Assembly (NCBI RefSeq): GCF_008831285.2
Contig: NC_045148.1
Coordinates: forward strand, 1,488,001 to 1,552,000
Direction: 5' to 3'
Origin: Nymphaea colorata
Taxonomy: Eukaryota > Streptophyta > Magnoliopsida > Nymphaeales > Nymphaeaceae
Length of the DNA: 64,000 bases
Part shown: piece by piece, positions 2,541 through 56,800 of the stretch
How positions within the stretch are numbered: position 1 is the stretch's first letter
How the letters are laid out: every line of letters starts with the position of its first letter
Made by a program: the position numbers and the translations under genes
The notes under the pieces: generated by a model
What the model saw: the letters and a program-made list of their open reading frames with translations, nothing else
The model's database searches: none
What the model was told of the DNA's origin: nothing

Positions 2541-5500
2541 CACTTTTGCATATACTGTTTTTTATATGATGATATTCTACACTAACAAGGGCATAAAATT
2601 AATGCAAAAAAATTCATTTTATTTCTTTCTTTTTTTCCTCTTATTTTCTACAAATTAAACCTGCGGATCTGATCCACATGTTTGTGTTGGCAGGAAGGAA
2701 GTTTGGACCCTTTGCTTTGTGTGATTTTGACATATGAATAGGTTTTTGGAGTGCTAAGACAATTAAGATGTTGTAGATTATGTGAAAACTTAGTGATTCA
2801 TGAAGCCACTCTTTCACGTGAAGAAAAAGGGATGAAAAACATTGTGTTTGCTTGTGAATTGATGGATTTATTTTCTTTGATACCCTTCAATATATATGTG
2901 TACACCATGTCATTGGTTGTAAATGCGCCTTCCCGCTTATTCATTCATGCTTCTAGTCTTAAGATGTTTAAACAAAAATGCCTATCTGGATGCATAAAAA
3001 AAGTATGTTTATCGTGGTAAATTTATTGTTTTGCACATGATTGAAGTCTAGTATCACCTAGTGGAAAAAATTTATTAATATATCAGGCTAGCTTGGTGGC
3101 TGTTGTATTATATGTTGTTGATGCCTGTGATTGTTTGGCAATTTTGCAGGTGATATGGGCTTAGTGTTAGGTACAGTTGATTCTTATGGTCATGCCATTG
3201 TGTCTGTACTGGATACTGGAAGCCAAGGTACCATTTCTTTCTGTCCTTTTCTATTCTACAAGATATGCTGAAAATGGCCAATTCACATTGCTGAGGGTGT
3301 GGTATGGATGCAAAGGGGAAAGACAGTTAGACAGCACTTCTGGGAAGGCTTTGAGTATATTTACATACGAGTAGGCATGAAAAATGCACTTGTTATGTGA
3401 CAAGTGGAAAGTGTGAAAGATTCAGGAAATGCTCTGGATAAGAATTTACAGGGCATTAGTTGTAAAGTTGTAAACTAAAATCTTAAGAAATGTAGAAGGT
3501 ATATTGTTGGTGTTGAAAATTTGAAAATTTATAGTTTGCATTTTTCATGTTGAGCATGGGCTGTATGTTGGTTGAGAACAAGCAATTTGAATTAAGTTTG
3601 AAGTAAATTGGTCCTAGCCCTGGAGGACCCAGTACTTGTGTGGGTATTACACAAATATGAGGATAAGTACATGGGACCGGTAGGAATGTTCAGGACATTT
3701 TGATTTAACTTCGTTCATAATGTTCCCTCATTTGTAAATTACTGTCTCCTGAATTGATCATTCTATTAGTTTATCATAGTGAACAGCTGGCTTTTATTCA
3801 AATAGGCAGATCATGAAAAGTTAGGATGTAAACAAAGATGCTTCCTTTTGGTAATGGAGAAAATAATGTTTTTTCTGTCCATTATATATTGGCAAATGCC
3901 TCCCGTTTACACGTGTCAAATTGTCAGACATTGAAAGGCTCACGTATTCCGCTCTGCCTCTGGATTGTGGTGTGGGTGAGGGTAGCTGGGCTGGTCTTTG
4001 CTTCAGTCCAAATCAATGGTCCACGGTAATACACTTATGTACTTTGCTCTCATTTATGCTGTAGGTAAATGTTGCTTCTGTTTTCCTCATACTATAAAAC
4101 CTTTTGGATTGGCATCACAACATAAAACTTGATTGTACTATGAACCAAGGGATATTTTCCATTTGTTTGTATTCAGCTCCTAAATTTTTTGTTAATTAAT
4201 CTTGCTAACTGCCTGTTGACGATCATATACTTCATTAACCTATGACTGTTTAAGTTCTAACTGTCAAATCCTTAATTAGATGCATCAGGTGTTTTGGTAT
4301 TGTGGCTAACCTATGACCCATCTGTTGTTTTCCAGACAATGACTGTCTACTTAGATATCAGTTGTGTTCTAAGTCATAACTTATTGTTCTAGTGGTGGTA
4401 TGTGGTAGTTGTGCCATTATGGAACTAGGATGTAATTTTTCCTCTGTTGGATGTCACAAGGTTCATGCTATCAAAAGTCCACACATGTGTGTGCCTACAC
4501 GTGGGTTGGATCCTCATTTTCTAACATGGCCTTTGAATTGTGATGTTTGAGGCTAGAATTGTGGGGTGACTTACAGGTATGGACATCTATAAAGTGTAGA
4601 CGCTAATTTCAGCTGCGCGTTTCACCTCAAAATTCCCAAATTGAAATTAATAAATGTCAATATGGAGGTTTATTTGCTTATTGCTGTGCCTATTGATTCT
4701 TCGATACTGAAAAAGCTGAGACAATTTTGTGAAAATATGTAAATAGCCTGACATCATCTTCGTCTGCAATTGAAATCATCCATCAGCCAACCTGATTGCA
4801 GAAAGTCCAAAAACATAAACTTCGGAAATAGGCACCTCTGTCAACCATTGGTGAGCAAATGAACTGTCTTAAACACATTAGAGATAGATGCAATTAGCAT
4901 CATGCTGGGAAGATTTTGTAGATTTTGGTTTTAGGGGGGGGGGGAAATGGCACAAGCGCTTGCATGGAACTATGATCCTGTGAAAAATGGAATAAGATGT
5001 TCTTTTTGCAAAATGTTAACATTCTCTAGATTCCTACAAATATTGGCAACTGGATATTCAGTTTTTTATTTTACCTTCGTGCCCAATCGTTCAACGTTGT
5101 TGAATACCAGAAATCATGTATGTGCTTATATTGATCTGCTAATATCAATGTTATCACTGGCGTATCGTATCGCGTATCGGTCGGGCCGACCTATACGCCG
5201 TATCGTAACATATCATAAATGTATCGTAACGTATCGTAAAATTAATTTTTAATTTGTAAAAAATATTAAAAAATTATAAAAAATACAAAAAAATCAGAAA
5301 AAATCTAAAAAAGTCCGAAAAGATAAACAAAAATCAGAAAAAATCAAGAAAAATGTATTTAAAGGAACATTCATCATTCATGCATACGAAGTATGAACTA
5401 TGAAAGTATGAAGTATGAATATGAACAACACATTCCAAAATAAGAAACCAGACGTTCAAAAATCAAAATAACATACTAAGCAGCCGAAGAGTATTTGATT

Positions 5501-8500
5501 ACATCACAATTTATAAGTTCAGAAGTCAAAACATATAGACATAGTTATCATCTTTCCTGATTCAACAAAAAGCCTCGTCAATCGTCATTTGCATCATCAT
5601 CTTCATTCTTCATCATCATCTTCATTTTCTTCATTAAGTGCTTCTTCTATCCCCTCTGTTGCAAATGGAATGTCACAAAAAAACCAAAAAACCCTCTTTC
5701 TCCAAGCTTCCCATTGTGCCCTCTACGAGAAAGAAACATTTTCACGGGCAAAACTTGATGCAAATGAGGAAAATCTCTCCCTCCCACGTCTCTTGAAGCG
5801 TTTAGAAACAAGAAAAGAGAGAGAAAGAAGAGCGTATATACAAGAAGACGCAAAAAAGGGGACGTCGGGGCCCCTTTTTTATAAATTTCCCCGTATCGTA
5901 CGATACGGGGGTGTATCGCCCATGTCGTGCAATAAGCCTACGATACACGGCCGTATCGTGTATCGTAGACGTATCGTGCGATACACGTCCGTATCGTACG
6001 CTACGGATAACATTGGCTAATATTATATTTGTTTTTTCTGTTTTGATCTCCAGGTGGCAGTTGCTCGTAGTTTTTGCAAAAGCATAGATATCTACGACCA
6101 AGAGATTCATCTTCGGAGTTTACACACGTAAGCTATTTTATTATTTAAATGGATCTCTATCAACATCTGGATCTTATGTTTATGTGCTTGAGTAACAAAA
6201 AGAGGCTCACAATAAGAGCACATAAGTTAGTTATCATCAGCTTATTGTTATAAAGGTTTCTCTGGCTTTGTTGAAATTTACCTTCTTTCTGAGCTATAAA
6301 AGTGATAGTAGTTGTTTCTGTCTAGCGACTGATTCAATTATGAGGTCTTCTTGCAGCTTGTGGAATCCTGCTTCTATATGCTTTGTGCAAACGGTAATTG
6401 GAGATGGTGGCTCTTCTATAATAGCCATTGCTGAAGGCTGCCAGGTATCATGCTTCTAAGCAGATGATTTTAAGTTGTTTTAGATAACTCTTGAAGGTGG
6501 TAAACAGGTTTTCTCGAAAGGGTCCCCGTGTTTGAAGATGGTTATTATGGTGTATTGAGCCACATTTTCAAGTGCTTGCTGCAATAAATAAAACATAATT
6601 TACTCTTTAGAGTTTACAAAAATTTCTATTTTTGTTTTTCCTAAACTGCCTCTCTGATGCTAGTCACCTGAGTTCCTTTCAGTCCTCAAATGCTGAGGTT
6701 TGTATTTACTTTCATCCATGCCCTCAATCAAACATCAATGTCAAGAATTTGTCTCTAGATTTAATCTTTGAAATACAATTTTTTTCTTTCCTCACGAGCC
6801 AACTTGTTGCAGCTCTCCATTTGGGATCTCAGAGTAAAGCAAAATGGTGGTTGCATACAGCGCATTACTGGGACCCTGGGAAGCCCTTTTCATGCTGTTT
6901 GCAGTTCTGCAGATGGTTCGGTTGCAGTTGGTGGGGCCGATCGTTCTGTGACCATCTTTGACTGTCGCAGGTTAACAACCAAACGAACATTGGAATTATG
7001 ATTTGACTCTGATATTATTACATATGGTTCCTGTAATTCTTGCTATCTGCACCTTTAGCTCCCCTATTTTGGATGTTTTCATGGATGGTTCCATGCACTT
7101 TATAATTTAGCTAGTAAGTTAATTCCTGTGATCCTACCACCTCCAACACTACTACTGGCAGTCTTTTCGACAGCCGCTATTGCTTCTGCCATCACCTCTA
7201 CTCACTTTCACCACCACCCCAAATGGTTGTCACACCACCTGCTACCTTCACCAACACTTTTCGACTGCAATCACCATTGTTACAGCTGCCACCTGGCCAT
7301 CACAACATTACTATTGTTTCACCCAGTGTTGTACGTATCGTACGATACAGAGTCGTATCATACGATACGTATCGTATCAAACGTAAAAAACGATACGATA
7401 CACCCCTTGTATCGTACATTTACGATACGGGCACGATACAACAACGATACGGTTATGATACGACACGATACATGTACGATACAATAATTTTTATTGATTT
7501 TTTATTATTTTTTGAGAATTTTTTATATTTTTTCTGATTATTTAAAAAAAAATGATATGTTACGATATTTTACGATACAGCGTATCTTAAAGCCAGATCG
7601 ATACGGCTTACGATACGCTTTTTACAACATTGGTTTCACCACCAGTGCCATCACTGCTGCTATGCCAGTTCTGGCATAACCACTGTTTCTTTTTTTTCTC
7701 TAATTTTGTCTTAAACTAATTCATTATCGAGCACTTTCATTCTTGTACATCAAAGACATCAATTTTTTGTGTCTTTGTTTTGACAATAAATAGAGTTCAA
7801 AGGACCTTAGATATACATTAAACTTTCAGAATGAAGTTATGGAAGCCTTATAGGAACCATACTCACAAATATTGGTCTTAGGCTCTTAGCTAATGCCTAC
7901 ATCTGTTCAAGGCAGAATCACACAATATTAGTGGTTTTCTAATAAGATCTAGGAAAACCTCAAGAATAAAAAATCTGTTGAGAAAATTGAAACGCAAGCA
8001 AGAAAAATCCTATTCAATATGAAAACAAATGAGAATTTCATGATATCACAGTGATATTGTTGTGAATTATCAACTACGTCACGCGGATGCACTTGTAAAG
8101 CACCAGCACTTGTTTGGGCACTTCAGGATACTTGAGTGTGGGCATGGGTACAGTCAAAGGTGTGGCAGATGCATCAATGCATTTTCTGCCATTTTTTGTC
8201 CAACTTTAGATCCAGTGAACTTTCGTTAAGTTCGATTTTATCTTTTTTGTAATTTTTTAAAACCTTTTAATATTTTTTATTTGGTCACTTGAATTAACCG
8301 TTTCCTGAAACCTTCTAATTCTGAACACTTTCATGTTATGTTGTTTATCAATGTAGTAACTATTTTTCAATAATTATTTTTTTGTGAGATATATATGTGT
8401 ATGTGTGTAGACTTAGTAAATATGATAACCATGTGAATGTATAGAGCCATCTAATCAATTTTGTTCACACTTCATAGTTTACGCAAATTTTTTTTTTTCA

Positions 8501-11500
8501 AATACAAATTAATCATGATTTGAAAAATAACTGTATATGAAGCACCATATGGTCATCAATTAAGTTATTTGGATGACTCTTAATCAGTCCACATAGTCCT
8601 CATATTTTCTTAATCTATATTTATATATAAAAACTGTGGCTGCATCCAAGTTTTCCTAAATTGCTTTGCATTCGAATGCGCACTGCACCTTTACCCACGT
8701 GACATAGGTTTGAAAAGTGTTTAAATTTCCTGTGTTTTCAATTTCTTACAAGATTTTTCTTTTATATTTTACCACTATCTTGTGATTTTCTCAAATGCTG
8801 CTGACATCTATAACTATGATTGGAACTAAAAGCAGAAAAGTCAACTTCCAACCAAAAGTAGATTGGCATTTTATTTTATAAACATACTTGTATTTAAGGT
8901 TCTAAAGCTAAGAAGACGGAAGCTAAATGTGATCTAACTGGGTGCACTGGTAGCTCAAAACCGAAGAAATCCACAGGAGTGTTTGTTTCTTCTCAGCTTT
9001 CTAAGAGCAGTATGACTGTCAAATTTTGGTTTCAACTGTATCTAGCGTACTAGTTAATTTGTTTCCGACCTTTTTAAAAACTTGCATTTTGACTTCAGCA
9101 TTGCATGCAGATGGTCAGCTTTTTCAAGGTGGGTGAATTGTTCAAAGTATGAGGTGGGTTGTCCTGCAGCTGCTTCTCTCTTTCGAAGTACTTTTTTTGT
9201 TATCTTCTGAAATAGCAGGTCTCCTGCTGCCAGTTCTATATGCATCATTTGAATATATTATAGACTGGCCAGCGGCCAGTATGCTCTCTTCTTTACATGG
9301 TGGTCATTCTCCTTATTACTTTGCCCTCCTGAAAGCTGTTTGGAGGCTATTCCTTTATTGATGTTCCCATTTGGCTTTTTTTTTCTGAATGTAGTCTGGT
9401 GCACTCTTGTTAGTGTTGTATTACCTCAAGGAGGTATTTTTCCCTCACCGTAATGAGATATTTTTTTTGGTTGTCTTGTTGTAGTGCTTCTCCTTTCTCT
9501 TGCAGTAACACTATTGGAGGCACCCAACATCCTCCTGGATGGTGCCTAATGCCTAAAACTTTTTTATCAAACTGTATTTTCTCCTTGCGATTAGAATGTC
9601 CAAGACTGCCCTTAGCTACAGATGCTTCAAATCTCTATCTAGTCTTTTAATAATATATTTATAAATGCTTGCATCAGTGCATTGCCGTCAAAGAAAAAAG
9701 AAAGTAATTGATTCCATTCACATTGCCAGTGAAGCCATGCAATATCCATTCACCTTTCCAAGCCATGGACTATCCGGGCATCACATTATCTAGTCAAGCA
9801 ATAAATGCTTTTAATCAAGCCATGCACTAACCATTCACCTTGGCTACTCCAGTCTTGCGGATCCCAAATTCCACTTATCTTGCACAGTTTCAAAAAATTT
9901 TACATGTTGAGCATGTGTTCTCTAAATTGACGGGCCAATAAGTTTTTTGCTTGAAAATGACTGTTTTTTTCCCCTTTCAATGACATAATGGTGAAGAAAC
10001 ATTTAAAATTTGTAAGCTCTCTTATGCTTCTACATGGTTAATCAATATTTCATAGATCGTCTAAAGTATGTTTCTATCAGACGTATCACCTGCAGAATGA
10101 ATATCTTTGAATTGGTGGATTCTAACTGTAATTGCTTGTTATTGTAGATAACAGGTCTTGCATTCTCCTCTCTGGATGCTGATCATATTTACATTCAAAG
10201 TGTTGACTATGAGGTAATTGTATTTCCTACTATTCTCTTCTTTGGGCATCCATTCTCTATAGGCAACGTTTGGAATTTATTTATGTCAGTTTATTATTGT
10301 TTACATGTTGTAGAAACACGCAGCGGAAGAAGAGAAAGAAAAAACGAACACAGGATTTACGTGGGAAACCTCAGAACGAGGTGAAAAACTACGGGGAAGC
10401 TCTAACCTAGGGGCAAAACCGCAACCCTAGGAGAGAGAAAACTTAATTCACTTAATCAACAATTACAATAAGTGATTAGAATAAAAGAGGGAGGAAGAGA
10501 GACTTGCCTAGGGAACCGAGCCCGTCCTCGGTTCCCACGCCAATGGGTACCGGGTCCATATCCGGACCCGGTTCCCTATTACACGGTATTCTAACACACC
10601 CCTTCAAGCTTGGCATACATGTCAAACATACCAAGCTTGCTAACATTTTTTTCAAATTGAGATGTACATAAGGCTTTAGTTAGAACGTCTGCAATTTGAT
10701 CTTCAAACTTCATATAAGGAAGGATCAACTCCTTTGAATCTATGCGCTCCCGTATGAAGTGGCGATCTATCTCCACATGTTTGGTTTTGTCATGCAGGAC
10801 GGGATTATTTGCCAGGTTAATCGCAGACTTATTGTCACAATACATTTTCATCTTCTCTTCAATTTCAATTCCAATATCTGCTAAAAGAATCTTTAGCCAT
10901 AACATCTCAGTAACCCCCATAGCAACAGCCCTGTATTCAGCCTCAGCACTGGATCTAGAACAGACCTCCTGCCTTTTACTCCTCCATACCACCAGGTTTC
11001 CTCCTAGAAAGATGCAGTACCCTCTGGTAGATCTTTTGGTATCCGTGCAACCAGCCCAATCGGCGTCAGAGTATTTCCTTCAATATTAAGTTTGTCCTGT
11101 CGTGTATACAGTAACCCTTTACCTGGTTTATTCTTCAGGTACCCCAACACTCTTTCTGCACTCTTCCAGTGACAATCAATAGGAGCATGCATAAATTGAC
11201 TCAACACATTTACAGCATAAGTAATATCAGGGCAAGTAAAAGTAAGATAAATAAGCTTACCAACCAGCCTCTGATACCGTCTTTTTCCTTCCTCATCCAG
11301 GATGTTACCAGTTTTGATACTTATCTTTGTACCTGACTCCATTGGAGTTAGAAAGGGCCTGCATCCCAGTTTACCTGTCTCTTTCAGGAGGTCCAGAGTG
11401 TACTTCCTTTGGCTCATAACAAGCCCTGTTTCTGATCGTGCAATCTCTATTCCCAGAAAGTACCTTAATTTTTCCAGATCTTTAAGGTCAAATTTAGCAG

Positions 11501-14500
11501 CTAACCTCTCCTTCATCTTCCTTTTCTCTTCTTCATCATCACCTGTGACAATCATATCATCAACATACACAAGAAGAATGCTCACCAGGCCACTTCTCTG
11601 CTTAATGAACAGGGTATGATCACCATTTCCTTGTTTGTACCCATTTGTCTTCATTACCACCCTCAGTCTTTCAAACCATGCTCTAGGGGACTGCTTCAGG
11701 CCGTACAGGGCCTTCTTGAGATGACAGCATTTTCCACTTTGAGCATATCTGGGAGGCATGCTCATATAGACCTCCTCCTCTAGATGGCCGTTCAAGAAGG
11801 CGTTCTTGACATCAAGTTGGTCCATGCCCCACTTCTTTTGCACTGCAAGTACCAAAATGACCCTCACAGTCTTCAGTTTTGCAACAGGAGCAAAGGTTTC
11901 AAGATAGTCAATTCCGTATTTTTGGCTGAACCCCTTTGCAACCAGACGAGCTTTATACCGTTCCACAGTGCCATCATGTTTATACTTCACACTAAACACC
12001 CACGTGGAACCAACTAAGTGAGTCCCCTTGGGAATATCAACCACTTCCCAAGTGTTGTTCTTTGCTAAGGCATCCATCTCCTCTGTCATAGCCTGTAGCC
12101 ATTTAGGATCCTCTCCAGCATCTTCCACACACCTAGGAATCACAGACATAGACAGAGTGGTAATAAAGCATTTGTACCAGCGGCGGTGGGACGGCGAGCT
12201 GCGTCGGCGGCGGGACTTAGGGCGGCGGGACTTAGAACTCCAGCAAGGTCAGACTTAGGGTTCCAAAAAAAACCCTAAATCACACACAACGAAGAAGCCA
12301 AACAACACGATTTTGGCTCTGATACCATGTAGAAACACGCAGCGGAAGAAGAGAAAGAAAAAACGAACACAGGATTTACGTGGGAAACCTCAGAACGAGG
12401 TGAAAAACCACGGGGAAGCTCTAACCTAGGGGCAAAACCGCAACCCTAGGAGAGAGAAAACTTAATTCACTTAATCAACAATTACAATAAGTGATTAGAA
12501 TAAAAGAGGGAGGAAGAGAGACTTGCCTAGGGAACCGAGCCCATCCTCGGTTCCCACGCCAATGGGTACCGGGTCCATATCCGGACCCGGTTCCCTATTA
12601 CACGGTATTCTAACACATGTTTTCTCCTATTGCTTGCTAAATGTTTCACGTATGCTGACTTACCCTTGCATCCAAGGAACTATATCTGGGGATATGAAAT
12701 GACTTCTGAGTTCTCATTTCCATATTACTTTCTGTATTTGTTCCTATTTGGTATCCGTGGTTTGAATACTTCCAAGTTATGGTTGATATGAGGAAGTATG
12801 TTTCATTCGGTTTTGGTTGGATCTTATTCTTTGACTGTTCTCTGTTTTCTGATATTTTCCCTTATCCTCCTCAATTATGTCTCCCTTTTGGTTATTATTA
12901 TTTTTTTTCAATAATTGATCAGCTGTTGATTCCTCAATTTGATAACCTTTTTGTACAAATACCAACTTTGCTGCTTTACTATGCCTTTTATTTTCATGGT
13001 TAAAAAGCAAATTGTGAAAAAATATAGCGGTGGCAAAGGAACATGTCAGAGCCAGGACATGAGATGGTTGGGTAGATGCAAGGATCTGAGTTCTGAAATT
13101 GTCCATCGAGTGCAGAACCACCAAAAGTCATGAATATATCCATAATATTTTAGAGTATGACTACAGAAAACAGATAAGAAGAAAAAGAAGGAACTTCAAA
13201 TTGGGGAATCGGAATAATATGTTTAAAATTTTAAATAGTATTTAAAGAATTTCATCCAGAAATGACCCATCAAATAATTGCCATAATGCAGTCTTGTGGA
13301 ATCAGAAATTGAATTGAATCTGCCAGGCGGCCGATTTAATCAATTTTCTGATTCAGTGGTTCAGCTTTCTGTTATGAATAGGCATAAAATACTATTATAT
13401 GCACTTTTCTTAAATCAAATGACCAATAGAAAAATTAAAAAGAATGCGTTAAAACTTAAAACTGTTAAAAAATAATAGAAAATGCATAACGTACGTCAGG
13501 TTGCACTTTTTTCAGCCTGCAAATCAAAACAATTTTTCACTAATTCTATTTGATGTGGCTGATTCAGGCTGATTTTGGTAACATTTGTAAAGAAACATTT
13601 GTAAAGAAACAATATCTTCTTGGTGACTGAAACTTGCACATATTGAGTTTTAAGTATTTTCCTTTAGTCTAAGCAATATTTTTTTATACATACTCTCTCT
13701 CTTTCTCTCTCTCTCTCACACACACACAACCCTATGCAAATGCATGTTTTGTGCCTAATTTTTCTTTCTTGTATGTCCATGCTGTTGCATGCATATATGT
13801 ATCTGATGATGCCTTAAAGAGCTTCGTTTAATTCAAAAGTCCACAATTTTTTATCCTCATAAATTTTCCTTTTAGTTTCACAATTACAAAGATGCATTTG
13901 TCCTAGCTGAGAAATTAGAAATGCTTTGACACAAAATTTTTGCTCTCATGGTAAAAAGAAGGATTCCTTTCACAGGTTTCTTGTGGGAATTGGAAAAAGA
14001 ATAATAAGGTATTTTCTTTTAGAGGAGACTCAAATTGGCTAGGGTTTAGCAAGGTATGCACCTGTTTCCTTGCTACAAAAGTACCTAATTTTGTGCGTGA
14101 CAGAACACTTCTTAGCCCTTGGATTCACAAGCTTTGTGTTGGAAATGACAGCATTCAACGACTGACACTATAGCTGGTTGGTGTGATTCTGGAAATATAT
14201 TTGTTGCTGATGTTGGAGTTCAACAATAAGGTGCATAATAATGATCTAGATTTTCTGGTTTAAGTTTTGCCTGCTGAAACTTTTGTATGTAGCTCATTGC
14301 TGTGCTTAGTTGATTTTATGCTCTTTTTAGGTCCTTCATGCAAAGATTTTGAGATATGTACCATTGAATAAATTCTGTTTTCAAGTATCTTTCTTCTTAT
14401 ACTTCTGTTGATATATCAGATTCAATCATAAAAATTTTGCAGTACAATTTAATAGAGGGTACCACAAGCAAACATAGCACCTTGTAGATTTTGAAAATCA

Positions 14501-24109: not shown

Positions 24110-25014
24110 CAGCGGAAGCAAACCCATAGGGAGAGAGAGGGGGAGAAGGAGGGAGAGAGAAGGATCGATCAGCCATGGCCGAAGATTAATGATATGTAAG
24201 CCAGGTGCCTCTTGGAAACTCCGCTGTCCTTGAGCTTTCTCTGTGTATCTGTTTCTTCTTACTTGCTCATGGGGTGGGTCTCTGAGCGTCTTCATTTCTT
24301 CTCAATCGCTAGTTTGAGGCGATCGATATAGCCCTAACCGGATCTCGTTCGGCTTCGTTCCTTTTGAGCATAGACCGCTCATGAGCACGGATTATCTGTT
24401 TCTTTCTACTTGAAATCTATTTACGGAACATTTCGGGGTGCGGCTAAATCTGGGTTTTTTTTTTGTTTTTGTTTCCTCGGTTTCCCCCATTTTTTCTCTC
24501 TTTTTTTTTTTTGAGCGGTTACTGTGCGGGTCATCTAGAGGTGGTTTGTGGTGATTCTAGGGTTTAGGATCGGAGATTCAGAGGGGATTCGAGCCTGAGG
24601 GTGAAATTAGGGTTTTGGATTGAGTTTGGGTATTTACTGTTCTTTCCTTGTTGTATCTTCCTTGTAGGGTTACCAGAGTCAATTACGTTCTTTATATGCT
24701 TTTTTTTCGCAGATTTTATTAACTAGGGTGAATAGGGGGAGAATTTAGGTTTCTTATGTTTGTCTTATTGTCTGTATTTGGCAGGCCTGAGGGTGAGTTT
24801 GTGTCTCGGAAGGCTCTCTGTTGTTGCATAAAAGCCTCTGCTTTTTCATATATTCGTTTAATCGAGCTCTATCAAAAAACGAGTTTTTGACCCATCCGTC
24901 TTTTAATTCTTTCTTATTTTTCCTTGCAGTCCAGAGCCGTGATTTCTTCCGTGTAAGGGCTGTTTCTTATGCTTGTTGTCTGCGTGGAATGTTGACTAGC
25001 TGTCTCTAGTGAGA
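24110..25014 (+). promoter_or_regulatory. 5' leader of the ROH1-like gene, with leader intron and tiny uORF
   Basis: A GA-rich stretch (24128-24162) is followed by an ATG at 24175 that opens a four-codon frame ending in TAA (24187-24189). A good donor (GTAAG) starts at 24196. A matching acceptor (TTCCTTGCAG) ends at 24929, giving a leader intron of about 730 bases that is T-rich as plant introns are. The main ATG at 25015 follows 85 bases later. A second possible acceptor lies near 24784. The transcription start is not visible, and the uORF could lower translation. Confidence 0.55.
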
Positions 25015-26184
25015 ATGCCTGCTACAGATTACCAGGGTACTTCTGTGCCTTTTGGGTCATTAGGACGTACAATTCTAAGTCTGAGACGTGAACAGGTTCA
25101 TTCAATGGAGGGGAGTTCTGAATCTGGGTCTGCACAAGAGCAGAGGCTTGAGGCCTTCCAGCGGATGGTCACTGAGAACTTCAACCAACTTGCTTCCTGT
25201 AATCCGGATGAGCTTCTTTCATTGTCTTGGATTCGCCGCCTTCTGGATGCATTCCTCGCCTGTCAGGAAGAGTTTAGGCTAATCCTTATGAATCACAGGT
25301 TCCAGTTTGCAAAACCTCCTCTTGATCGTCAAACAGCTGAATTTTTTGAGCGCAGCGTCAAGGCTCTTGATCTCTGTAATGCTATTCGCGATGGGATTGA
25401 GCAGGTCCGACAATGGCGCAAGCAGCTTGAAATTGTACTGTCTGCATTGGATGCACGCCATCGTACTCTTGGGGAGGGACAGTTCCGTAGGGCAAGGAAA
25501 GCCCTTAGCGATCTGGCTGTTGGAATGCTTGAGGAAAAGGAGTCTGGATCATTTCTGGCCCAGAGAAATAGGTCTTTCGGACGGAATTCCACCAAGGAAC
25601 GAACGGTGGGTCATTTCCGGTCCCTTTCATGGAGTGTATCCCGCTCTTGGTCAGCTGCCCGCCAGCTTCAGGCTATTGGGAACAACCTGAACCCACCACG
25701 GAGCAATGATATATTAGCAACTGGTGGTCTTTCTGTTCTTGTATACACCATGAATACAATTCTTCTCTTTGTCATGTGGGCCCTGGTTGCAGCAATTCCT
25801 TGTCAGGATCGGGGCATTCAGATACATTTCTCAGTTCCACGACATTTTTCGTGGGCATCTTCTGTTCTCCCTCTGCATGAGAAAATAATGGAGGAAGCAA
25901 AGAAGAGGGACCGAAAAAATTCTTGTGGGCTTCTTAAGGAAATACACCAGATCGAGAAATGTGCCCGTCAAATAACAGAGTTGGCAGACTCCGTCCACTT
26001 CCCGTTGCCGGAGGCCAAACAGAAGGAAGTTAGGCAAGGAGTTGACGACTTAGCTCATGTGTGTGAAACATTGAGAGATGGGCTTGACCCATTCGAGCGC
26101 CAGATTAGGGATGTCTTCCACAGAATTGTCAATAGCCGAACTGAAGGTCTCGATTGTTTGGGGAGACCACACAGTTCTGAGTAG
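25015..26184 (+). CDS. ROH1-like protein (DUF793 family)
   Basis: This intronless frame of 389 residues starts MPATDYQG, the typical start of the plant ROH1/DUF793 family. The family resembles BYPASS1, and Arabidopsis ROH1 binds the exocyst subunit EXO70, so a role in secretion is likely. A conserved helical N-terminal half ([13 protein letters not shown], then [11 protein letters not shown]) is followed by a basic Ser/Arg-rich segment (about 178-220). A hydrophobic stretch (about 233-262) could be membrane-associated. A helical C-terminal half (to [25 protein letters not shown]) completes the protein. Length and organisation match complete family members. I chose the ATG at 25015 because the two codons before it lack an ATG. 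The shadow ORFs in other frames are ignored. Function is inferred from the family only. Confidence 0.92.
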
Positions 26185-35118: not shown

Positions 35119-36210
35119 ATGGAAGCAAACATTCCACATATCAATTTCTTCGGGTCCACGTCCTGTGGCGTTGAGAGGCTCCACATCGCCGGTACCGGTC
35201 TTCTCTTGGCCGGAGACGCGGACTCAGCGGACTCGTTCTCTTCAAACCGGAAGCTTTCGGTGTCTCGGTACAAAGGAGTGGTGCCGCAGCCTAACGGCCG
35301 ATGGGGTGCTCAAATTTATGAGAAGCACCACAGGGTCTGGCTGGGGACATACGGGACGGAGTCGGAGGCCGCCAGGGCCTATGATGTAGCTGCGCTCAGG
35401 TTCAGGGGGAAGGATGCAGCCACCAACTTCAAGAACTCGCCGGAAAATGAGCTCGAGACCTGGTTCTTGGGCTCACATTCAAAGGCGGAGGTCGTGGACA
35501 TGCTCAGGAGGCACACGTATCAGGAAGAGTTCTCGATTGCCAGCCAGAATAGGAAGAAAATTGCAGGCACCACTGGTGTCACGTCTGCCCGACCGGGATT
35601 GAGCTCAGAGTCCAAGCGGCGGGAAGAGCTGTTCAGCAAGGCGGTCACACCTAGCGACGTCGGCCGGTTGAACAGGTTGGTGATCCTAAAACAGCACGCG
35701 GAGAAGTATTTGCCGGCGGCAAAGCAAGAAGCTATGCTGCTGACGTTCGAAGACGAAGGCGGCCGGGTGTGGAGGTTCAGGTACTCTTACTGGAAGAGCA
35801 GCCATAGTTATGTATTCACTAGAGGATGGAGCAGGTACGTGAAGGAAAAGAAGCTCAGAGCAGGGGATGTAGTGGCATTTGCAAGGTCCACCGGTGCAGA
35901 AAAGCTGTATTACATAAGTTGCACATCAAGCTCATCAGCTGCAGAGAAGGTGCATCATGCTCCATTATTGCAGCAGAGCCCCGTAACGTCGGAACTAGAG
36001 GTGCCACCATCACCGCCGGCAGAGGCAATGGTGGCGGTACTGCCGCAAAAACTGGTCAGGCTTTTTGGGGTTGAACTATCCAGCAGTAGTACTAGTACTC
36101 CTCAGCCTTATGGTTGCAGAAGAAACTGCAAGAGGATGAGGGAGCAGGAATTGACTGGCAGTGAGTGCTGTAGCAAGCAGAGGATATTAGGCCTTTGTCT
36201 CTCATGTTGA
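35119..36210 (+). CDS. RAV-type AP2/ERF and B3 transcription factor (first of pair)
   Basis: This intronless frame of 363 residues has the RAV/TEM layout. An AP2 domain spans about 50-105 ([40 protein letters not shown]). A B3 domain spans about 170-270 ([51 protein letters not shown]). The repression motif RLFGV lies at 314-318. RAV proteins bind a bipartite site, CAACA by AP2 and CACCTG by B3, and act in the nucleus; TEM members repress flowering genes and gibberellin synthesis. The B3 segment usually written VIPKQHAEK reads VILKQHAEK here, so residue 190 is Leu (CTA at 35686-35688) where family members have Pro. The ATG at 35119 is the first in frame. The frame is intact, so the gene is probably functional. 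Confidence 0.94.
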
Positions 36211-42325: not shown

Positions 42326-44971
42326 CCATAACTTTTCTATATATTATCCCCCAAACACCATTGCTATCAAAGGACGAGATGGGATGCAACGTAAAATCTA
42401 TTTGTTTGTGTTGATGTTTTCTAACGACGTAAATTTCATGGTTGACAGTTTTTTTTTAATGTTTTATGTAGTAAAATCCGATTTTTATATAAGATTCTGA
42501 AGGTCATGTCTTTATATCTTCAAGGTTTCAAGGTTCTGTCTTATTTTGGTCCTAAGTCGATTTTTAATGCATATCTTTCAACTTAAGTATCGTACTTGTT
42601 ATTAAAATTAATGTGACAACGACCACGAGATGCAAACCTCACATTCTTTAAGTGTGAGCCACCTCCTTGATGCCTCTTGAGACTTATGGCTGACAATGTA
42701 TTGACTTACTTTTACATTGTTTATTTTGGTGAGTATAGATAAAATTTTGTATCTCATGAAATTTCAAAACTTTAAGATAAATGCAAAAGCTGGGTTTTTG
42801 TTTGGTGCATTCAAATAACCCGTTCATGCAATTTATAACTACGTTACAAGTCGTAAATCTAAAGCACAGATGATCACATGCATGTAAGCGGTTTGGATTT
42901 GGTGCTGAAGGTTTTGGAAAAAGGATGGAATGTGAAGTTGATGGTGATTAATCTTTTGAGACATAGATGGGAAATCCCGGTGAGAGGTAGGTAAGTTTCT
43001 GGCCAAGTGTTAGGAATGTCAATTCAAATGAATTGTCGCCATCAAGACTTGGGCATCCATCCTCAAGTAGTCAACTTGAGACGGTCGCTTTCTCATGAGT
43101 GCCCCAAAAACAAGCTTCCCGCACTAAATGTGGGAATATCTTTTCCATTTCCAGCGATCCGTTTCAAGGAGAAGGACAAATTAAATACTGTGAAAAAAAG
43201 GACGAGAGGGGCCGTGTTTGCCTGTGTGGAAGACGAGACGGTCTCGTCCTCCATGTCCTCGACAAAGCATGCGCTTGACAGGGGTCCATGCATGCACGAA
43301 AGCAAGAGGAACTAAAGGCTTTCCCATTCTTTAATGCCAAAATTAAAACAAATAACACCATTCTCATACGTCTACTCTTTTCCAATTAATACTTTTCGGC
43401 CTTCTCTCTCTCTCTCCCTCTCTTCACTCAATTCAATGAATTCTCATTTTGTTGGCTTTTTTTTCTCTTTCTTTCTATATATATATATATATCTTGAATT
43501 CTATCTAATCACAACCATCCAATGTATTACTTGAGACAATGTGATTACATACACTATCTGATGAAATGCATTGAACAATGTGTTGTGAGAGGTCGAAAGA
43601 TTTCAACATTCAAACCTAAACGAAGAAATGCTTTCCATGCACATAAAGTAACCAGGAAATGCTTTCCATGCAAATGATTTGTGGAACTGGATCGGGTTCT
43701 ACCGGCGAAAGAAAAAGGGATCGGAGAAAGATTGGAAATCAAAAAGGTTGGGAATGAATGTTGAATGCTGAGCATCATGGTCGCCTACACATTCATCGTC
43801 ATCATTTATGGCCATCATGGTTCAGACTATTTATATCGTCGCATTTAACCTCGAAGCCAACTTGTCTGATCCGGTTATAGAGTTTTATAGCAATGAGGCA
43901 ACATATTTCCTTGATCAATAATTTAAGCTGCTTCTTAGAAAGCTAAAACCAAAATATGTATAACGATATGAATATTTGTTGGAATAAATAAATAGGAAAA
44001 AAGTACGGCAACAATTAAATAAATAGTTTCTATACAGGACAGCATATATATCTTCCTCATAAAAAGTGCCATACTTAAATAACTAGTTAAAAAAATGTGG
44101 GGACAAACAAGAGAAAGAAAAGTCCAAGCATCAAAATTGCATGGCTTGGATAAGGTTAACGCCACTTGATCAAGTGGCACCACTCCTAATTTGTTATTTC
44201 TCCCTCTGTCAGACCCACTTGCTACAACGCTTTTGCTCTTTGCATCGTCTCCCCACTCACAACATCGAGTTGGTAAGAATAGTTTTAAACTATTATACAA
44301 GAGGAAATAAAAGTCAAACTGGTATTCATATCTTTGTAGATCTTCTAATAAATTTGGTCATGTGTTTTAGGGGGGACAAGAGGTTGGTGGGGACTTCAGC
44401 TTTTTCTAAGTTGTGGGATGAAATACTTTTCCTATTCACTCTCGTACGTCAGTAAATGAACTTGAACGGTTGGAGTACAGCTGCCCTGAATCATTTACCT
44501 GCCAATATGTATATCTATGTATGTATATATGTGAACTTGGTGCTCTAAAGCCAACTGGTTTGTCGGTATTATTTGTTGTACGAGTCATGAATTCCAACTT
44601 GGCAACGTGCAAGAAGTGGCATTTGGTTGCGACTAATTGTAGCTTGCCACGTGGCACACACACATATATATATATATATATACATATATATATCTCTCTC
44701 GTATATATTTGGACGCTTCAAATTAAGAGGGTGAGGGTAAGGGGGATGAACCTTTGGTTTCTTAAGGTCCACTTCCATGTGAAGGTGATCAACTTGCCGC
44801 GGGGGACCCACTCACATCAGGCATCCCCTAATCAGAAAAGCAAGAAAAGCCAAGACTTGTCACTCCATATCCAACTTAGCACAAAACGACACTTCCTACT
44901 CTTCATATTAATTTGTACCTGCACTTGCCGCTTTTCCTTTGGACTTTTCCAAGCACCCGGTAGCCTCTTTC

Positions 44972-46000
44972 ATGGGTACCGGAGTTCGCGGAGAAGAGGG
45001 GCTGGTCGGCCGTGGGGATGCCGCCGGGCTCGCCGGCACGGTTTCCGGCCATGAACGACAAGGCCGGGGAGTGGTCGGAACAATCGCCGTCAACGACCTA
45101 GAGTCGCACGAGTTCTGGCCCTCAGCCAGGAAGCTCCCGTCCTCCCGCTACAAGGGAGTGGTTCCGCAGCCAAATGGCAGATGGGGAGCACAAATCTACG
45201 AGAAGCACCAGCGCGTGTGGCTCGGCACCTTCCGAACCGAGGAGGAGGCGGCGAAGACCTACGACATAGCTGCCTTGAAGTTTAGAGGCAAGGATGCCGC
45301 GACCAACTTCCGGGACATGTCGGTGGCGGACGAGTTCGAAGCAAGGTTCCTGGAATCCCATTCGAAGGCGGAGATCATCGACATGCTCCGGAAGAACACG
45401 TACCATGAGGAGCTCTTGGTGGAGAAGAGGAATCTTACGGGGGGCATGTTGTCGTGTCGTTCGAGACGAGACCCCAAGAGGTTGAGGGAGAAGGAAGAGC
45501 TGTTCGAGAAGGTGCTCACTCCCAGCGATGTGGGCAAACTGAACCGGCTGGTGGTGCCGAAGCAGCACGCGGAGAGGTACTTCCCGGTGGCCGCCGGCCG
45601 GAGACCGGAGGCCGTGCTGTTGAACTTCGAGGATGAGGGAGGAAGGGTGTGGAGGTTCAGATACTCCTACTGGAACAGCAGCCAGAGTTACGTGCTGACC
45701 AAAGGGTGGTGCAGGTTTGTGAAGGAGAAGAGCCTGAAGGCCGGGGACGTGGTGACTTTCGCGAGGTCGACGGGTCCGGAGAGGTTCAATTTCATAGGAT
45801 GGAAGCATGGGGTGGTCCGAGCCAAGGCTCACCCACCGCCGCTCTGGGCCTCCTCCATGTGGCAGCCATTGACAGGAAAAGAACAACAGAGGCCGGCGAA
45901 GTTGGTTCGCCTATTCGGCGTGGACCTTGCGGCTGGCGACGATCACAAGCTATGCAGTTTGGAGTTGAGCCGTGATCTACAGAATTTGGGTGAGAGGTGA
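44972..46000 (+). CDS. RAV-type AP2/ERF and B3 transcription factor (second of pair)
   Basis: This intronless frame of 342 residues starts [10 protein letters not shown]. The ATG at 44972 is the first in this frame; the open frame upstream begins without an ATG. The AP2 domain spans about 59-115 ([40 protein letters not shown]). The B3 domain spans about 176-280 ([53 protein letters not shown]). RLFGV lies at 313-317. It keeps the usual Pro (residue 196) of the VPKQHAE segment, unlike its neighbour. Codon use is much richer in G and C than the first RAV gene, mainly at third positions. The family binds CAACA and CACCTG motifs and acts as a nuclear repressor. The gene probably arose with its neighbour by local duplication. 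The minus-strand 254-residue ORF across it is a shadow. Confidence 0.95.
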
Positions 46001-53432: not shown

Positions 53433-53841
53433 ATGAGGGCGGCGATTTCTGCCTCCTCTTCTTCTTCATGCTCTTCTCCTTATTGCGGCTTCCTCTCTGC
53501 TGCCACCGTACGTTGGGCTATTCTCTTCCATACGGGTGGCGGCGCCACCGGCCCTGAGGAGCGGGCAGGAAGGAGGGAACGGTGGGATAGTGAATGCAGC
53601 AGAGGAGATGAAGGGCGAGACGTGAAGGTGTCAGTATGGTGGGATTTCGAGAACTGCTCCGTGCCCGCCGGGGTGAGCGTCCGTAGGGTAGCCCAGCGCA
53701 TCACCTCCGCCCTCAGGGCTTCCGGCATCCGCGGTCCCGTAACCATCACAGCCTTCGGCGACACTGCCCAACTTTCTCGCTCCGCTCAGGAGGCGCTTAA
53801 CGCTACCGGCGTCGGTCTCACCCACGTCCCACGCCGTTGGT

Positions 53842-53891
<50 letters not shown>

Positions 53892-56800
53892 TGCCAATTT
53901 GTGCTTATTCATATTTACAGGCACCTGTGCTTATTTTCTGTGGTGTTTGGTTTATTTTTTGGAATCACTTTTGCGGGGCGCAATGCACTTGTATTTTTGG
54001 GGACCCAGGGTTTTTATCATAAAATGGGATTGAGGTCCACTATAATCCTTGGTAGTCTTACCGTGAGAATTCGAGCAGATTTCTTTATAAACTCTGCAGG
54101 TCCCTGTGTTTGTGACTCCAGGAATGGGACAAGAAAATGCTGTATTTTTCGAAGTTAAATGTGTGACTCTTTTTTTCATGATAATTTTCCGTAAATGTCT
54201 CAACTACAGGCCATCGACTCCCCTAAATGAATTATCAATTCCATATGAATGGGATAGGTTTTCCGGGCAATGACAGCATGAGGTTAAAGTCATCTGAGAA
54301 AGTAAGACAATGGGTTGTATGTGCATGTTCTGGAAATCAGTGGCTTGGGAGTTCTAGTTGCAATGGAGCTTCTTCTGCATTTTTCTGTGCATGAATTGAG
54401 TCATAGGCCCGTATATGCACATAAGGACGCTTGGTTGCCTTTGAATTTTTATTTGAACGTCCGATTATGATTTCTAAGTCAATTAGGATTTTCTTCTTGT
54501 GCAGGTGGAAAGAACAGCGCTGACAAATATCTTCTGGTTGATCTTATTTACTGGGTCGCACAAAATCCACCACCAGCGCATCTTTTCTTAATATCTGGCG
54601 ATGGTGATTTCTCAAACATTCTGCATCGGTTAAGGATGAGTAACTACAATATATTGTTAGCGAGCACAGAAACCTCTTCACCAACGCTGTATAGTGCTGC
54701 AAGCATTATGTGGCATTGGAATGCACTTGTTAGGGGGCATACCCTTGTGGGCAAGCATTTTAACCATCCTCCAGATGGGGCGTCCTCTTCCTGGTATGGC
54801 CATTTGAAGGGACCTCTGGAGGACCCTTTTGTTGTTGTGGAGCAGCCTCCTAGTAGTCCTTTGCCACCTGAGATGTCTCAAGAGCCTGCTGTGGAACTGA
54901 AGCCTCGTCCTGTCCCTAAATCAGTGGTTGCTAGGATTTGTAATATAGTGAATTCATGTCCAGATGGCATGAACATTCAGGCGCTCCGTTCAGAACTAAT
55001 AACAAAAGATGTGGTAAAACATAAAGATTATTTTGGGCATAAAAAATTCACTCAATTTCTTTTGTCATTACCAAATCTGGGTATCAGGCGTGGCATAGGA
55101 GATCTAGTTGTTTATGGGCTTCATCCTACACCTGCTGAACTTGGCAAGTCAAATTCAAAGTCTTCGTCAGAGGCGAGAAGTGACAGAAATGGAGATGAAA
55201 CAAAACCTGTTGCCCAGGAAGAACCTAAAGTTGTTTCTCCATCATCAGTTTCAGTTGCTAAAGGGATGGAGCTGGCGCAAAATACCTGTGCAACATCAGT
55301 TGTAGAAAGCGAGAAGCCAACAGAAACTAAGGCTAGCAACTTTTCCTCGTCTATTTGTGTACAGGATTCAGGAGAGAGTTTTCTTCATAGAGTGGGAAAG
55401 ATTTTCTTTGGAAGGAAAAGTAATGTGTCTGGTGAAGAAACAGACACACATATAAATGATTCTTCTGGGAGGAATTCAGAGAAGCAACAAAGTTGTCAAC
55501 GTTCTGATTCTGTTGGTTCAAGTTCTAGCTTCCTGGTGGGGAAAGGCGTTGAGTCAAGTATTGATAGCTCCAATCTGGTGTCGAGATTCCGAAGGCTCAT
55601 ATTTGGTGTTCAAAGGTTCTGGGTTCCTGGTGAAGAAAAGCAGAAGTACACTTCTGCAATCAACGACATAACCATGGAAAACCAATGTGCAGTGAAAAAT
55701 GTAGGTGTTGCTGATATTTGCCAGACAGACCATCCATCTTTAAGTCATGATGTCTTTCACAACCCCAACTTCTGGGATGATATTAAATTATTTATTTGCA
55801 GTCAAAAAGGTGTTTCTCTTGTCTGTGAAGCAAAATCAAGGTATCTTTTCCTTCTAGCTCATTTATATGCATTCACTATCTAGAACTAATCATTTTGAGG
55901 AATAATTCCTGAGGGTTTGCTGGGATGCTTTATATGTCACATTGGCAATTCTTTCTATCTGCTTGTTTTCATGTTTCTTTTCATTATGGGAGCTGTGAAA
56001 TAAGGGTATCAGATATGTCATATGTTATAATAAAAAGTACCAGACTACCAGTTACCACAGCTCTGCTGTCCTTTCAGCTGCATCCAAAATCTTTATTAAC
56101 TCTCGCATTGCATGGGATAGGTTGAGAACTGGACCAACATCTATGAATCAGTTTGGCACCATGCATTTGTTCCTGTCGGCTGAAAAAGAAAGAGTTAGAA
56201 CAAAGGAGAAAAAGAAGAGTGTCTATATGTCTCAAAAGTGTATCTGTTTATATTATTCTTCAAAGTGTATATGACACAGTGGAGACATAATGGTTTGCAT
56301 TTGTTCCTGTTCATTGGACATAGTTATATGCAACTGACAATTACATGAAATTCTCAGTACTAGTAGGAATGGCATTTTTTATAGATAAAGAAATAGAAAC
56401 TTTTGGGACTTAAGATTCCTCGGTATAAGTGTCTTCACTTAATGCCTGAATTGGAAGTTGGACATAAGTTGGTTGACCCCCTAAAAGACTAGTTGGTCGA
56501 GGTCACTCTAAATCAGACTCGAACTAGCACAAAAAAATGTGCCAAAATTAATAAAAGACTAAAATATGCATGTGATAGACAATAAATATGTACAATAGTT
56601 GTCTATGATGTTGAAATAGAAGGATTTGAATCTTTGACTAACAACATGCACAAAAAGAAGACAAACAAAACACTGAACATACAAAAGGAAACATGCAACA
56701 ATAACATGCCGAACAATAGAACAAATAAGTGAGACAGGAAAAGGAATATGCAATGAGCCTACAAAAGAAATTTGAAAAGAAATGGCTAAACAGTAAAGAG

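Follow-up and report, generated by a model that had tools for sequence, protein, structure and literature searches.

The maize Ac/Ds elements are associated with 8-bp duplications and have terminal inverted repeats (TIRs) starting with CA. In Ac, the hexamer AAACGG is repeated within ~200 bp of each end and is bound cooperatively by the transposase, and both deletion derivatives and short derivatives of the element exist (excerpts of PMC3260210). The transposase of Arabidopsis Tag1 binds short subterminal repeats and the ends of the element are unequal, while the mosquito element Herves has one motif common to both ends and is bound asymmetrically (excerpts of PMC3143072). For Hermes there is a structural account of the recognition and pairing of unequal hAT ends: two BED domains cooperatively bind a quasi-palindromic repeat pair in left-end bp 11–27, left repeats 2–7 and right repeats 1–5 are each unidirectional, and the ends are asymmetric; in Tol2 of medaka a perfect palindrome directly follows the left TIR, with a further repeat 10 bp on (excerpts of PMC10368747). 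The same excerpts state that multimer data comparable to those for Hermes are lacking for other hAT transposases. Here we describe two elements, E1 and E2, in a 64,000-bp stretch of the Nymphaea colorata genome (NC_045148.1, positions 1,488,001 to 1,552,000; hereafter the window), which carry the hexamer GTATCG and its complement CGATAC in dense arrays near their ends.

We propose, with a probability of roughly 0.87, that E1 and E2 are non-autonomous hAT elements that inserted separately and were moved in trans, and that their arrays are binding sites for the BED domains of transposases from two families, A and B. Among the open-licence papers listed by our searches we found none linking GTATCG/CGATAC arrays to hAT elements, a zero that says little for so long a motif. 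The main text of a grapevine hAT paper (PMC2528002) is without CAATG, CAGTG and GTATCG, and nothing useful was found in the same literature that joins Nymphaea colorata with hAT.

Two elements with subterminal hexamer arrays

A preliminary description of the raw sequence had recognized two elements in one gene by their hAT-like inverted ends and perfect 8-bp duplications. Both elements stand up to inspection (Table 1): the ends are CAATGTTATC / CAATGTTATC in E1 and CAGTGTTGTA / CAATGTTGTA in E2. We scanned the whole window for 8-bp duplications accompanied by CA/TA ends agreeing in at least 8 of 9 positions within 4 kb and obtained three places, namely E1, E2 and one TA-repeat artefact. The same scan applied to 40 order-1 Markov windows returned no place in 35 of them, one in 4 and two in 1. 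Tips of the CARTGTTRT type, with TIRs beginning (C/T)A, are present at both ends of E1, of E2 and of six complete long elements described below.

The hexamer density, reported earlier as far above chance with about fifteen copies in the 309-bp element, was confirmed. GTATCG/CGATAC occurs 15 times in E1 and 15 times in E2, versus 9 times in the remaining 62,821 bp (0.04 per 309 bp). The maximum among 1000 dinucleotide shuffles of E2 was 4, and the same value was obtained for E1. As a looser control, we asked how often any hexamer reached 15 copies, which happened in 0/1000 shuffles of E2 and 19/1000 shuffles of E1. With E1 (minus strand) and E2 (plus strand) co-oriented, the left tips are identical at 41/60 positions and the right tips at 43/60, and the DNA alignment concurs, whereas left and right tips compared with each other agree at 24–27/60. 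Hence, the left and right ends are distinct in kind, and both kinds are common to the two elements. DNA folding yielded z-scores of –6.1 for E2 and –8.0 for positions 5880–6015, so the hairpin-forming capacity that had been ascribed to the palindromic pairs is real; an array of inverted hexamers is expected to give strong foldback by construction. An Rfam search of the window returned nothing at gathering thresholds.

The two elements do probably lie in one gene. They are flanked and separated by conceptual exons of a WD40-like protein (~3150–3227, 3900–4026, 6053–6128, 6357–6444, 6813–6970 and 10148–10213), and therefore probably inserted in two different introns. The WD40 name itself is weak, with every Pfam match under the curated cut-off and a best PDB sequence match of E = 4.8e–5.

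Table 1. Features of E1 and E2 in the window (TSD, target-site duplication; MITE, miniature inverted-repeat transposable element)
Feature	Position	Strand	Details and basis
E1 left TSD copy	5138..5145	none	8-bp GCTAATAT, exact repeat at 6016–6023
E1, 870-bp non-autonomous hAT element, family A internal-deletion derivative	5146..6015	–	TSD and ends; left end at 6015
E1 right-end region, 6 hexamers, single direction	5146..5245	–	hexamer count
E1 transposase C-terminus remnant, DIPFATEGIEEALNEENEDDDEE then stop	5603..5679	–	same tail found downstream of the dimerisation domain of full-length elements
E1 deletion junction, element bp 336/337	5679..5680	none	alignment edges to L061, L062, L063 and L076
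E1 left-end region, 9 hexamers, mixed orientation, foldback	5880..6015	–	hexamer count and folding
E1 right TSD copy	6016..6023	none	8-bp GCTAATAT
E2 left TSD copy	7316..7323	none	8-bp GTTTCACC
E2, 309-bp MITE with family B ends	7324..7632	+	right tip match to L078; 26 usable copies including E2
E2 first palindromic hexamer pair GTATCGTACGATAC, element bp 12–25	7335..7348	none	kept in long and short copies
E2 left-end array, 12 hexamers	7335..7482	+	hexamer count
E2 right-end array, 3 hexamers, one direction	7573..7616	+	hexamer count
E2 right TSD copy	7633..7640	none	8-bp GTTTCACC

Genome copies and two transposase families

We searched the genome assembly (G000; 407,766,735 bp, 783 contigs) for relatives of both elements. 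The copies considered below are best-scoring subsets, biased to similar, intact copies, and the end pairs of E2-type and E1-type copies were picked by the best 8-bp match. For E2, the best 40 of 1226 first-look candidates were scored, giving 30 loci, E2 included. Leaving out L025 (no end pair) and L018, L026 and L030 (implausible pairs), 26 usable copies remained. They were oriented by majority hexamer direction, a partly circular procedure with which the distinct right tips concur. The 8-bp duplication is exact in 18 of the 26 copies and contains one mismatch in 5, two in 2 and four in 1; at the chosen ends, other lengths from 3 to 12 bp gave no exact duplication. For 11 of the 18 copies with an exact duplication, both ends coincide with the ends of the 1–309 alignment. 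The left tip is CAGTGTTGTAC in 15/26 copies and the right tip CAATGTTGTAA in 23/26, and the copies are mutually 79–95% identical.

Longer stretches around three places of the E1 search described below gave the complete elements L061, L062 and L063, and a peptide of the transposase dimerisation domain was then used to search the genome. The best 150 of 953 candidates were from 75 to 100% identical, and many of them formed one large block at ~78–79% with almost the same score. We refer to the close group as family A and to the 79% block as family B. An exact 8-bp duplication was found in six of the seven long elements fetched, which are 3.3–3.6 kb in size. Family A is represented by L061 (3470 bp, duplication TTTGAAAG), L062 (3304 bp, GCGCCGGC) and L063 (3395 bp, GGTATACA), all three with hexamer arrays at both ends, and by L076 (3466 bp, GTTGAGAG) and L079 (3576 bp, GTATATAC). 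In family B, L078 (3528 bp) has the duplication GTACGACC, and L077 has an altered left tip and no duplication that we could find.

The hAT transposase that the preliminary description could only suppose was found inside these elements, which are bounded by ends and arrays of the same kind. The hAT dimerisation domain PF05699 (Dimer_Tnp_hAT) scored above the cut-off in L061, L063, L076, L078 and L079 (E down to 2.5e–14); in L062 and L077 the piece with the PF05699 region lay outside the scan, and the two L062 frames scanned contain BED only. The BED zinc finger PF02892 (zf-BED) was above the cut-off in L061, L062, L063, L076 and L079 and just under it in family B (18.4 bits in L077 and 19.1 in L078 versus 20.6). 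DUF659 was detected in frames of the long elements, L061 and L063 among them, with E-values down to 3.7e–58. A PDB sequence search with the BED-DUF659 frame of L063 gave four matches (best E = 0.13), none of them meaningful. The transposase frames contain motifs such as DGWTD, TDNAANY and CERNWS, which presumably have a catalytic meaning (putative DDE). Altogether, the 8-bp duplications, (C/T)A TIRs, hAT C-terminal dimerisation domain and BED zinc finger place these elements in the hAT superfamily. Uninterrupted stop-to-stop frames extend over 741 amino acids in L076 and 662 in L079, an open frame being no proof of activity. Identity near the 3′ end is at least 99% in 34 of 253 pairs of family A long copies (L038–L060), reaching 99.7%. 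The long open frames and these near-identical pairs suggest recent activity of the transposon in this genome.

The two elements of the window differ in family. The 34-bp right tip of E1 matches family A at 32/34 positions and family B at 26, whereas that of E2 matches L078 of family B at 33/34 and L076 and L079 of family A at 24 and 26. Judged by these tips, E1 belongs to family A and E2 has family B ends, the families being related but different. We considered placing E1 and E2 in one family and dropped the idea, since their right tips differ in family; of the one family that had been proposed on the basis of the arrangement, the shared ends and arrays remain, distributed over two families. 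The left 52 bp of E2 give no family resolution (44 matches to B versus 45 and 43 to A). E2 aligns to L078 at positions 1–93 (83.9%) and 162–309 (75.4%) and retains the ends only.

E1 retains more of its parent. The best 40 of 1354 candidates of the E1 search comprise 7 places, E1 included, that span the deletion junction, and 33 that begin at E1 position 337 (one at 342). In 23 loci of these 33 (L038–L060), the transposase gene, in some of them with frame breaks, replaces the left part of E1 upstream of this edge. In E1, a left end and leader of ~340 bp are fused to the final 534 bp of a family A element, with a loss of about 2.3–2.5 kb relative to the full-length plan. The 534-bp 3′ part is 86.6–91.6% identical to L061, L062, L063 and L076; L079 aligns to it in two pieces (80.9 and 90.5%). 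The junction, placed at a short TTGG repeat, is common to 7/7 E1-type copies. An exact 8-bp duplication flanks 4 of the 7, including E1, L037 has a duplication with one mismatch, and L032 and L035 have no believable end pair. What remains of coding sequence in E1 encodes the acidic transposase tail, located after the dimerisation domain in complete elements; a Pfam search with this peptide gave no match, and its origin is evident from the genome copies. The earlier designation of both elements as MITEs is therefore apt for one of them. E2 is shorter than 600 bp, has no coding sequence that we could see, occurs in many copies and shares its ends with a coding element. E1 does contain coding sequence and, since the acidic tail of the transposase is retained, is better called a Ds-like deletion derivative that has multiplied. 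One deletion, followed by multiplication in trans as for maize Ds, would be the simplest account of the E1-type copies.

The ends also recur far beyond the copies retrieved by similarity. Exact matches to a 25-bp left-end pattern (tip plus inverted pair) and to the right-end motif were counted genome-wide, giving 344 left and 410 right ends; the reversed-pattern controls gave 0 and 0. The recurrence of the ends in the genome and the 8-bp target length of the copies, two points on which the preliminary description could have been refuted, both speak for its hAT assignment. Pairing was analysed on contigs C1 and C2 (57 left and 80 right motifs) by orientation and distance within 6 kb. We found 28 proper left-right pairs, 0 facing left-left pairs, 2 facing right-right pairs and 1 improper neighbour, and the left-right distances lie near 0.3, 0.7–1.1 and 3.3–3.5 kb.

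Several unusual arrangements were also noted. Nine of the 28 left-right pairs are 0.7–0.77 kb apart (e.g. C2:16152087-16152840) and may represent another deletion derivative, in addition to the E1 type and the 0.3-kb type. At G000:C2:23828871-23830058, two right-end motifs face each other 1.2 kb apart and may belong to a right-right element or to two neighbours. In L068 (~2425–2833; G000:C11 near 12115667-12116517), a family A element is followed directly by a second right-end copy with its own array, and at G000:C14:11501012-11501788 a family A element is likewise followed directly by a second right end; such doubled right ends could reflect nested insertion or aberrant repair.

Array architecture and rival readings

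In the six complete long elements, 8–19 hexamers lie in the first 220 bp and 5–6 in the last 150 bp, and none are found in the middle (6/6 elements). The left arrays are mixed in direction, and their inverted pairs GTATCGTACGATAC start at bp 12. The pair at bp 12–25 is exact in 5/6 long elements and a second pair, at bp 32–45, is exact in 4/6. Of 27 short copies, 22 preserve the first pair within two changes. Right-end hexamers are unidirectional in 138/138 cases in the 23 long copies L038–L060 and in 100/100 cases in the 27 short copies. Spacings between same-direction hexamers cluster at 10–12, 20–22, 26–27 and 5 bp, i.e. close to whole or half helix turns, in copies that share ancestry. The left 52 bp of L078 (family B) match those of five family A elements at 44–46/52 positions, versus 67% identity of L076 and L078 overall. 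At the right end L078 matches four family A elements at 42–44/60; for L063, whose right end seems displaced by an additional repeat unit, the ungapped value is 25/60. The hexamers have common flanking letters, being preceded by A and followed by G or A. Divergence is lower in hexamer columns than in the others (11.2 versus 24.2% at CpG and 2.7 versus 6.2% elsewhere), a difference that may be inflated by repeat alignment.

The observed ends, duplications, families, coding domains, array architecture and shared deletion junction could be joined in the following scheme. As cut-and-paste (class II) elements, E1 and E2 would have inserted separately into the two introns. Several BED domains of a transposase multimer would bind the GTATCG/CGATAC subterminal repeats; we read the arrays in this way because their layout matches that of Hermes, Tol2 and Ac and because the transposase contains a BED domain. 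By this analogy, the transposase very probably binds at the hexamer. At the left end, the paired inverted hexamers from 12 bp in may accommodate BED domains in pairs. The right end would be marked as the other one by hexamers in a single direction, so that the transposase could distinguish the ends and pair one left with one right. Non-autonomous copies, which retain tips and arrays, would be moved in trans.

Several observations weigh against this scheme or limit the weight of its evidence. Internal deletions of one parent plan keep both ends, and the prevalence of left-right pairs is therefore no proof of end discrimination. The first inverted pair is exact in only 12/27 short copies. Coding windows of the L076/L078 alignment reach 74–84/100, so the left 52 bp are not alone in being conserved. 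Families A and B agree in their BED regions at only 34/74 positions (46%) with the hexamer unchanged, and another transposase domain could therefore read the hexamer. Because the copies are related, a feature shared among them does not represent independent events. Finally, the comparison covers families A and B as the hAT families of this genome.

The arrays could alternatively be no more than foldback DNA whose function, if any, lies in hairpin or cruciform formation or in small-RNA production, with no binding of transposase. The strong folding of both elements and the inverted pairs at the left end are in line with this, and family A right ends also carry a GGTCGGGCCGACC dyad. However, the unidirectional right-end hexamers (138/138) do not pair with each other, the arrays sit at both ends of coding elements with none between, and single half-sites in the tips of short copies decay without an obvious change in the partner (as judged by eye, with L016 an apparent exception). 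We regard foldback as the sole role of the arrays as highly improbable. It is also very unlikely that the hexamers are a by-product without any role, short tandem units that expanded by slippage. Such an origin would agree with the differences in array length between copies and with the common flanking letters. It does not account for the strict single direction at the right end, for the concentration of same-direction spacings at a few values, or for left 52 bp that are closer between the families than L076 and L078 are overall; the lower divergence of hexamer columns also speaks against slippage, although it may reflect alignment bias. Both a slippage-only origin of the arrays and a hairpin function were considered and dropped. 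For another TIR superfamily (Mutator, CACTA or PIF/Harbinger), with likeness to hAT arising by chance, nothing was found in favour, and the 8-bp duplications together with the hAT-C, BED and DUF659 domains refute it, so that its probability is negligible. Overall, we favour arrays that serve as BED-domain binding sites of family A and B transposases.

Other features of the window lie outside E1 and E2. A compound (GATA)n(GA)n microsatellite occupies ~2482–2537. A frame of 381 amino acids at 11004–12149 (–) was recognized by eye as reverse-transcriptase sequence from a copia-type retrotransposon; a similar frame of 793 amino acids lies at L062 2–2380, upstream of the full-length hAT element there. 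A ROH1-like gene is located at 25009–26184 (+; Pfam E = 1e–151). Two RAV-type transcription-factor genes, each a single long frame, are found at 35119–36210 and 44939–46000 (+), with AP2 and B3 domains confirmed for 44939–46000 only. Gene pieces at 53433–58929 (+) encode NYN and OST-HTH/OHA domains, suggestive of a MARF1-like gene.

Comparison with known hAT systems

A pattern first noticed in raw sequence has thus led to a complete transposon system with two families, coding full-length members, deletion derivatives and MITEs, in which the candidate binding sites are unusually legible at both ends. Among plant elements, Ac/Ds likewise has a repeated subterminal hexamer together with deletion and short derivatives. 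However, the hexamer of Ac/Ds is another one, and the present elements have an inverted pair at bp 12–25 and a one-way right array. Tag1, whose transposase is said, in the title of a cited study, to have a zinc finger, differs in having a separate motif for each end (AAACCC on the left, TGACCC on the right), whereas the present elements use one hexamer at both. Herves differs in its motif, CG/AATTCAT.

The left ends resemble those of animal elements. Tol2 also has a left-end palindrome near the tip, but its repeat is AAGT and it is a vertebrate element. Hermes shares the inverted pair near the left tip and the asymmetric repeats; it differs in its repeat, AAG(T/C), in having no more than two palindromic pairs in its left end, and in being an element of an animal, the house fly. 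The Nymphaea system repeats the Hermes layout with perfect palindromes and recent copies, and the rule for telling hAT ends apart is therefore testable outside animals. We tentatively suggest, at somewhat less than even odds, that plant DUF659-type hAT elements share a two-end code with Hermes and Tol2, in which asymmetric arrays of BED sites would constitute an ancient left/right rule: an inverted pair of BED sites roughly one turn of the helix away from the left tip, one-way sites in helical phase at the right, and one hexamer for both. If so, families A and B, with BED regions 46% identical and the hexamer fixed, would provide a natural test of a code shared with Hermes and Tol2.

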